Of a stretch of 64,000 nt of DNA, positions 31,971 through 37,121 are shown one piece after another. The notes beneath the pieces are model-generated. The model searched no databases. It was not told where the DNA came from and saw only the letters and a list, made by a program, of their open reading frames with translations. Source of the stretch: Blattabacterium cuenoti (GTDB lineage Bacteria > Bacteroidota > Bacteroidia > Flavobacteriales > Blattabacteriaceae); NCBI RefSeq assembly GCF_014252435.1, contig NZ_CP059220.1, positions 372,001-436,000 on the forward strand. The letters are read 5' to 3'. Positions within the stretch are counted from its first letter, which is position 1. Every line of letters starts with the position of its first letter. The position numbers and the translations under genes are program-made.

Positions 31971-32012
31971 TTTATATTTCGTCATATTAAAAGACATTAA
32001 TTATTTTTAATT

Positions 32013-33401: not shown

Positions 33402-34682
33402 ATGAAATCTATTCAAAATATAAAACAAAAATTTGGAATAATTGGATATGATTATACTCTTCAAAGATCTTTAGAGAAAGCAATACAAGTAGCTCCTACC
33501 GATATATCGGTATTAGTTTTAGGTGAAAGTGGTGTTGGTAAAGAATTTATTCCAAAAATAATACATCAATTTTCTTGTAGAAAACATTATTCTTATATTG
33601 CTGTAAATTGTGGTGCTATACCAGAAGGTACTATTGATAGTGAACTTTTTGGTCATGAAAAAGGATCATTTACTGGAGCTACTAATATGCGAAAAGGATA
33701 TTTTGAAGTAGCGAATAAAGGAACTATATTTTTGGATGAAGTGGGAGAATTACCATTAACAACACAAGTTCGTTTATTAAGAATATTAGAATCTGGTGAT
33801 TTTATTAAAGTTGGATCTTCAAAAACTCAAAAAACTGATATACGAATCGTTGCAGCTACAAATTTAAATATTACAGAATCTATTCAAAAAGAAAAATTTA
33901 GAGAAGATTTATATTATCGTCTTAATACGGTACAAATTACTATTCCTCCTTTACGTTCTCGTAAAAATGATATTAAATTTTTATTTAAAAAATTTTCTAA
34001 TGATTTTGCCGAAAAATATCATATGCCTCCAATTATTTTAAATAAACATTCTTTAAAATATTTAGAAAATTATTCTTGGCCTGGTAATATTAGACAATTA
34101 AAAAATTTAATTGAACAAATATCAGTAGTAGAAACTAAAAGAGAAATAACTATTGAAAAATTACAAGAATATATTCCAGATAATATTCCATCATTATCTG
34201 TTTCTAGAATTCATAATTGCAATCGATCCGATAAGGAGTACTTTTTTCACGATTTTTCTAAAGAAAGAGATTTTATTTATCAAATATTATTTGATATAAA
34301 AAAAAAATTCGATGATTTAAAAAATATTACTTATCGATTGATTAAAAATAATACCAATAATAAGTTTATTATCAAAAATCAAGAATTAATATATAAGGTA
34401 TTTGGAAAACAAATAATTTATCCTTATAATGAAAAAAATAATTCTATTTTTCAAATAAGAAATTCAATAAAATCCTCTATAAAAAAAAAATTTGAATTCA
34501 AAGAAATAGAAATAAATTCATCCCAAAAAAATCATATTTCTTGTTTTTCTTTAGAAAAACAAGAAATTGATTTTATACAAAAAGCTTTAAAAAAAAATAA
34601 TGGAAAAAGAAAAAAAACAGCTAAAGATTTAGGAATTTCAGAAAGAACATTATATAGAAAAATTAAACAATATGGATTATAA
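33402..34682 (+). CDS. Sigma-54-dependent transcriptional activator (EBP), no sensory domain
   Basis: Bacterial enhancer-binding protein: an AAA+ ATPase that remodels sigma-54 polymerase. In the 426-residue product Walker A is GESGVGKE (41-48), the sigma-54 contact loop is GSFTGA (88-93, for the usual GAFTGA), Walker B is IFLDEVGE (109-116), and an arginine-finger region is FREDLYYRLN. A roughly 130-residue Lys-rich linker leads to a Fis-type helix-turn-helix (KKTAKDLGISERTLYRKIKQYGL). There are only about 20 residues before the AAA+ domain, so no receiver, GAF or PAS sensor: activity may be constitutive or set by abundance. It sits between miaB and secG-groES-groEL. I recall the same neighbourhood in free-living Flavobacteriia, with lptE between. 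Targets are inferred. Confidence 0.93.
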   Translation: MKSIQNIKQKFGIIGYDYTLQRSLEKAIQVAPTDISVLVLGESGVGKEFIPKIIHQFSCRKHYSYIAVNCGAIPEGTIDSELFGHEKGSFTGATNMRKGYFEVANKGTIFLDEVGELPLTTQVRLLRILESGDFIKVGSSKTQKTDIRIVAATNLNITESIQKEKFREDLYYRLNTVQITIPPLRSRKNDIKFLFKKFSNDFAEKYHMPPIILNKHSLKYLENYSWPGNIRQLKNLIEQISVVETKREITIEKLQEYIPDNIPSLSVSRIHNCNRSDKEYFFHDFSKERDFIYQILFDIKKKFDDLKNITYRLIKNNTNNKFIIKNQELIYKVFGKQIIYPYNEKNNSIFQIRNSIKSSIKKKFEFKEIEINSSQKNHISCFSLEKQEIDFIQKALKKNNGKRKKTAKDLGISERTLYRKIKQYGL

Positions 34683-34757
34683 ATTCTCATTGTTTATCAA
34701 TCATAATTCCTACACAAAAAAATATATAAATGAAAAAAAAAATATAAATTTAATCCA

Positions 34758-35006
34758 ATGTCAGAAACAACTTATATAACTATACTTGGATTTTTCATTG
34801 CAATAACATGTATTTTATTAATACTAATCATTTTAGTTCAAAATCCTAAAAAAGGAAGTATTAATCAATCTTTTATGGATAAAAATTTTAGATTTTTTGG
34901 AATTAAAAGAACAAATACATTTTTAGAAAATATTACATGGATTTTATCTATTATGATATTTTTTTTAACTTTAATTTTTAATTTTTTTTTAAAACTAACC
35001 AAATAA
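34758..35006 (+). CDS. secG: Preprotein translocase subunit SecG
   Basis: Small SecYEG partner that assists export. The 82-residue product has two membrane segments (about 6-27 and 58-77) separated by a loop containing VQNPKKGSINQSF, the SecG signature-like QNPKKG. A 75-bp gap after the activator gene may mark a lost lptE, inferred from gene order in relatives. It ends 114 bp before groES. Confidence 0.9.
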   Translation: MSETTYITILGFFIAITCILLILIILVQNPKKGSINQSFMDKNFRFFGIKRTNTFLENITWILSIMIFFLTLIFNFFLKLTK

Positions 35007-35009
35007 ATC

Positions 35010-35022
35010 TGTCATTATGACA
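35010..35022. promoter_or_regulatory. Perfect dyad TGTCAT-T-ATGACA upstream of groES
   Basis: A 13-bp perfect palindrome, TGTCATTATGACA, starts 3 bp after the secG stop. Its centre at 35016 is 51 bp upstream of the first G of the sigma-54-like -24 box (35067), almost exactly the spacing seen upstream of dnaK (50 bp). It could be the binding site of the Fis-type activator encoded at 33402-34682. That is an inference from position and shared GTCAT half-sites. Confidence 0.45.
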
Positions 35023-35065
35023 TTTTACATTACCTCCAATAAATAAATTTTATATTTTTTTTATT

Positions 35066-35081
35066 TGGCATGTTTTTGGCT
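35066..35081 (+). promoter_or_regulatory. Sigma-54-like -24/-12 promoter of groESL
   Basis: TGGCATGTTTTTGGCT matches the sigma-54 consensus TGGCAC-N5-TTGCW. The GG (35067-35068) and GC (35079-35080) elements have the invariant 12-base spacing. Deviations are T for the sixth base and TGGC for TTGC. Predicted start near 35092 leaves about 29 nt before the groES ATG at 35121. Confidence 0.6.
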
Positions 35082-35120
35082 TAGAATCAATATTGTTATA
35101 AATTTTAAATTTATTGAAAT

Positions 35121-35399
35121 ATGGTAGAAGTAAAGATCAAACCTTTAGCAGATCGTGTACTTGTAAAACCTGATCCTGCTGAAACAAAAACATCTTCAGG
35201 AATAATTATTCCTGATACTGCCAAGGAAAAACCACAAAAAGGGACTGTAATAGCAGTAGGTAAAGGTAAAAAAAACGAACCTATGATCCTAAAGGAAGGA
35301 GATAAAGTCTTATATGGAAAATATTCTGGGACAGAATTGAAATGGGAAGGAGATGAGTATCTGATAATGAGAGAATCAGATGTAATTGCTATTGTATAA
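35121..35399 (+). CDS. groES: Co-chaperonin GroES
   Basis: Heptameric lid of the GroEL folding cage. The 92-residue product begins [17 protein letters not shown] and has the mobile loop [20 protein letters not shown] and the C-terminal [22 protein letters not shown]. Length is typical. It precedes groEL by 75 bp and follows the candidate sigma-54 promoter. Confidence 0.99.

Positions 35400-35468: not shown

Positions 35469-37121
<1,653 letters not shown>

Follow-up and report, generated by a model that had tools for sequence, protein, structure and literature searches.

A highly conserved sigma-54-type promoter element upstream of groESL in Blattabacterium, with a candidate enhancer and an apparently reduced chaperone regulon

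In the accessible part of a study of Flavobacterium psychrophilum, mapped transcription starts with a -24/-12 motif are given for groES-groEL, grpE-dnaJ, dnaK, lon, htpG and clpB (SM4), and a 'probable sigma-54-dependent transcriptional regulator' is listed together with LptE near groES (PMC9723704). The same part of that source contains neither mutants of individual chaperone promoters nor a named palindromic enhancer, features to be borne in mind when comparing it with Blattabacterium, with which it has the groESL target and the class of -24/-12 box in common. A second study predicted groES, groEL, grpE, dnaJ and dnaK to be sigma-54 targets enriched in Flavobacteriia and called groES of Bacteroides thetaiotaomicron sigma-54-dependent (PMC12316311). 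The chaperone cluster in that paper is a genome-scale prediction, it cites a Blattabacterium nutrition paper (its ref. 80) for the chaperone claim, and no statement about Blattabacterium was found in its text. Blattabacterium is unusual among insect endosymbionts in having kept RpoN, for which a link to nitrogen is described in a relative (PMC3971599). Our literature search found no description of the Blattabacterium groES promoter.

The window analysed here is a stretch of 64,000 nucleotides from Blattabacterium cuenoti, which encodes groES (35121-35399, PF00166) and groEL (35475-37121, PF00118) on the forward strand. A sigma-54 box in its textbook form reads TGGCAY-N5-TTGCW, with GG and GC 10 bases apart. 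The initial annotation had proposed a promoter of this type upstream of groESL, from TGGCA at 35066 and TGGCT at 35077. The reading proved exact: GG lies at 35067-35068 and GC at 35079-35080, with 10 bases between them and 12 from start to start, and the groES ATG at 35121 follows 35081 after a gap of 39 bases, matching the distance of about 40 bp that had been given. The core element TGGCATGTTTTTGGCT occupies 35066-35081 on the forward strand, within the 18-mer TTTGGCATGTTTTTGGCT (35064-35081), and its GG/GC spacing is that of a sigma-54 box in the window as in the 49 Blattabacterium genomes described below. The -12 half reads TGGCT where the textbook has TTGCW, a G replacing the second T, which counts against our interpretation. 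If transcription starts 12 bases past the C of GC, the predicted 5' untranslated region of groES would cover 35092-35120 on the forward strand. A hairpin in this leader (AACGATTAGTATCGTT in some strains) was set aside as unconvincing, its mean stem being 5.4 compared with 4.8 in shuffles.

Taken alone, the skeleton GG-N10-GC says little: it matches 97 times in the window, both strands counted, where a first-order Markov simulation gives about 38, although about 0.03 matches are expected in one 114-bp intergenic region on one strand. More complete forms are much rarer: TTGGCA-N8-GC has one match in the window (0.33 expected), and in a genome pattern search TTGGCAYNNTTTTNGCW has a single match in the 586-kb genome, which is the groES site, with no match in the control. 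When one mismatch was allowed, a relaxed scan of the same genome gave 10 matches compared with 5 in the control; the nine further matches are close to background, and both of the two that were examined sit within open reading frames.

The decisive evidence for the groES element is its conservation rather than the skeleton. In an alignment anchored on the box, GG-N10-GC is kept upstream of groES in all 49 Blattabacterium genomes, and the 18-mer is identical in 44 of them, amid fast-drifting AT-rich DNA. None of its bases falls below 96% conservation, while the flanks, AT-runs excepted, typically show 40-70% modal base. The five exceptions to the 18-mer (G011, G015, G019, G026 and G040) all keep GG and GC, and in G009 an intact box is displaced to 180 bp from the ATG. 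The box of G015 is weakened and has no palindrome of the kind described below, which is a point against our interpretation. Chance, or shared ancestry without function, could appeal to the commonness of the bare skeleton, but 18 bases have stayed frozen while their flanks diverged, and this conservation already refutes it; the occurrence of the box in free-living relatives, given below, likewise speaks against this explanation, whose probability we regard as practically negligible. It is also very improbable that the block is conserved as a tiny leader reading frame (ATGTTTTTGGCTTAG) or as an RNA element. The 18-mer does hold an ATG, followed in many strains by a few open codons, but G019 loses that ATG (TGGCATATTTTTAGCT) and retains GG and GC, the frame runs on for varying lengths past the block, third positions are no less invariant than the others, and an Rfam search returned no match.

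It is unlikely but still plausible that groESL owes most of its transcription to the housekeeping sigma factor, whether at a promoter that escaped recognition or through transcripts running on from secG, with the -24/-12 element as an auxiliary. Chaperonins are generally highly expressed in endosymbionts, as this explanation would have it, and AT-rich DNA readily offers sigma-70-like matches (6 found, 4.5 expected). Against it, no complete Bacteroidota sigma-A motif (TTTG...TAnnTTTG) occurs within 150 bp of groES in any of the 49 genomes, and the -24/-12 box is the only strongly conserved block of the intergenic region.

The element is also found well beyond the genus. Among 40 free-living Flavobacteriales, drawn from 13 further families of that order, [TC]GGCA-N8-G lies 44-85 bp before groES in every genome, with a mean of 0.18 in shuffles and three matches on the opposite strand, which indicates that the promoter is ancestral. 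Chaperone boxes are found both at groES throughout this free-living set and at grpE in 42 of the 49 genomes of the genus. The initial annotation had also stated that groESL in Bacteroidota is not commonly described as sigma-54 controlled; this needs correction because of the starts mapped in F. psychrophilum, the prediction in PMC12316311 and the boxes in all 40 free-living relatives. Within the family, genomes of sister genera that encode rpoN have a recognisable groES box in four of six cases, compared with none of the 11 that lack rpoN (p=0.006). The two rpoN-bearing genomes in which no groES box is recognisable (L090 and L093) are a point against our interpretation. The activator described below follows the same distribution, being present in the genomes with rpoN and absent from those without it, save for one match in G052 (L198), a sister genome bin lacking rpoN. 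This activator-like reading frame has an NSFTGA loop, a ligase-like reading frame adjoining it and no visible Fis-type helix-turn-helix (HTH); we regard it as unrelated, and it possibly lies on a phage contig.

The initial annotation had made rpoN and the conservation of the element two of the three checks on its proposal, and both support it: rpoN is present in this genome and in all 49 genomes of the genus, alongside the 49 conserved boxes. The RpoN protein of this genome scores 370 bits against TIGR02395 (cut-off 277) and contains the activator-interacting, core-binding and DNA-binding domains; an RpoN box can be recognised in 30 of 30 aligned proteins, and rpoN is under purifying selection (median dN/dS 0.21). 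Further features not covered by that annotation are a nearby activator gene, a palindromic candidate enhancer and a site at grpE. The activator gene (33402-34682, forward strand; PF00158 7e-65, HTH_8 7e-12) lies two genes upstream of groES, with secG (34758-35006, forward strand, PF03840) between the two. LptE, listed with the regulator in the accessible part of the F. psychrophilum study, is apparently missing here between the activator and secG (33402-35006). The activator, secG and groES are still found together in many free-living Flavobacteriales.

The activator consists of an AAA+ domain with a GSFTGA loop and a Fis-type C-terminal HTH, and has no N-terminal sensory domain. Every one of the 49 genomes has one strong PF00158 match, full-length; weaker matches lie in other long reading frames and look like other AAA+ proteins. 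Walker A and GSFTGA are present in 30 of 30 aligned activators, this variant of the GAFTGA loop also being found in 8 of 27 loops from free-living relatives. The HTH sequence ISERTLYRKIKQ is nearly constant, and the gene is under purifying selection (median dN/dS about 0.19). With PspF-type activators, and PspF is among its PDB matches, the protein shares the order of AAA+ domain and Fis-type HTH and the lack of receiver or PAS/GAF domains. Unlike PspF, it has about 120 poorly conserved residues between the AAA+ lid and the HTH, and at 268 bits it falls far under the 443-bit cut-off of the pspF equivalog.

A candidate enhancer, the palindrome TGTCATTATGACA, lies at 35010-35022, 56 bp upstream of the -24 TGG from start to start, and is the sole exact match in the window. 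The exact palindrome recurs across the genus at three types of site, upstream of groES, grpE and miaB. With at most one mismatch, TGWCA-N3-TGWCA is found upstream of groES in 45 of 49 Blattabacterium genomes (0.23 in shuffles) and in 29 of 40 free-living Flavobacteriales (0.42 in shuffles). The distances from palindrome to TGG in the free-living set fall at about 25, 35, 46, 57, 67, 78 and 89 bp, with a Rayleigh R of 0.84 at a period of 10.5 bp (n=29 unique, p about 1e-9); when words resembling terminator stems were removed, 19 were left and p was about 1e-5, both values being optimistic because the species are related. In a period scan none of 2000 random sets equalled this phasing. The Blattabacterium distances (55-59, 45-48 and 25) have nearly the same phase, and the fact that genera differ by whole turns points to selection on the face of the helix. 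Judged from these sequence patterns, the palindrome is likely an enhancer spaced to the -24 element by the helical repeat of DNA across Flavobacteriales, and the position of the activator gene, its co-occurrence with the site and its nearly constant recognition helix suggest that the activator binds there.

In several strains (L212-L217, L225 and L228) the palindrome also occurs just ahead of miaB, the first gene of the miaB-activator-secG-groES cluster, with no adjacent -24/-12 box; in this genome the site (window about 31978-32000) is degenerate. Autoregulation of the activator is a possible role for it. A distinctly unlikely alternative accepts the box as a real sigma-54 promoter but assigns the palindrome to another regulator, for instance a repressor, with the activator acting from solution or elsewhere. 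Its operator-like occurrence ahead of miaB, activator and secG in the strains examined would suit such a role; the whole-turn spacing of palindrome and -24 box among free-living relatives, the same palindrome beside another -24/-12 box at grpE and the near constancy of the activator HTH would not.

The strict pattern TTGGCANNNNTTTNGCW, which would miss sites deviating from it, was used to search the 49 genomes (about 29 Mb), and recovered groES in 46, grpE in 13 and four scattered others, with no recurrent further site; dnaK, htpG, clpB and lon were covered by this pattern search. Direct reading of the regions upstream of grpE shows GG and GC both kept in the 42 genomes counted above, and most grpE promoters in the genus carry the palindrome, mostly 23-25 bp ahead of the box. 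A classical enhancer would be expected farther away than its position there, about -52 to -40, which is a further point against our interpretation. The grpE box has been lost in seven genomes (G000, which is this genome, G009, G010, G014, G015, G023 and G039), all smaller than 600 kb (7 of 11 small genomes compared with 0 of 38 larger ones, Fisher p 4e-6, kinship ignored). The decayed box and palindrome of this genome read AGTCATATTGATA and TTTGGAAAAAATCAGTAAA (G000:C1 about 77950-78061, L211). Since GG and GC at groES are kept in all 49 genomes, groES is the target that was never lost. In one strain (L227, G033:C1:87000-89000) the grpE promoter and palindrome occur twice, about 630 bp apart, within near-identical coding repeats with an N at the join, reflecting either duplication or an assembly artefact.

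The regulon of F. psychrophilum, as given in the accessible part of its source, is wider than the groESL and grpE targets recovered by the strict pattern in Blattabacterium (PMC9723704). On this pattern the Blattabacterium regulon looks to have shrunk to groESL and grpE, which is apparently new, and making chaperones appears to be almost all that the genus uses its sigma-54 machinery for. Some strains, including this one, could have kept RpoN and a single activator for groESL alone, a sigma regulon of one promoter, although we propose this tentatively and lean slightly against it; such a regulon might form the endpoint of the shrinkage, a suggestion we hold with the same reserve.

From the comparative evidence, the groES element is very probably a real and active sigma-54-type promoter, inherited from free-living flavobacteria and kept by strong purifying selection. 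The fullest explanation joins this promoter, RpoN, the activator at the palindrome and a remnant regulon, and we assign it a probability of roughly 0.88. The element at 35066-35081 would be the core promoter of the groES-groEL operon, onto which RpoN, encoded elsewhere, would load RNA polymerase as a closed complex, as established sigma-54 biology predicts. The Fis-type HTH of the activator would bind the palindrome, placing the activator on the same face of the helix as the polymerase, and the GSFTGA loop together with ATP hydrolysis would open the promoter, with a predicted start near 35092. As the activator has no sensory domain, its activity would probably be set by its own level or by a partner protein; control through chaperone occupancy is speculative. 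The whole unit would be what is left of a protein-quality-control regulon of the flavobacterial ancestors, which dwindled as the genome was reduced until groESL remained, plus grpE in most strains. The kind of promoter is already known; what looks new is that it is conserved almost without exception in the genus, that its candidate enhancer is helically phased and that the regulon has apparently shrunk.

The prevailing view of insect endosymbionts is that most of their transcriptional control is gone and that they overproduce GroEL. The groES locus of Blattabacterium is the opposite case, in which a sigma factor and its activator are held under purifying selection, apparently for the control of chaperones. 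The palindrome provides a candidate operator for the chaperone activator of Bacteroidota, and the locus suggests a reason, other than nitrogen, for the persistence of RpoN, which is unusual in such genomes (PMC3971599).
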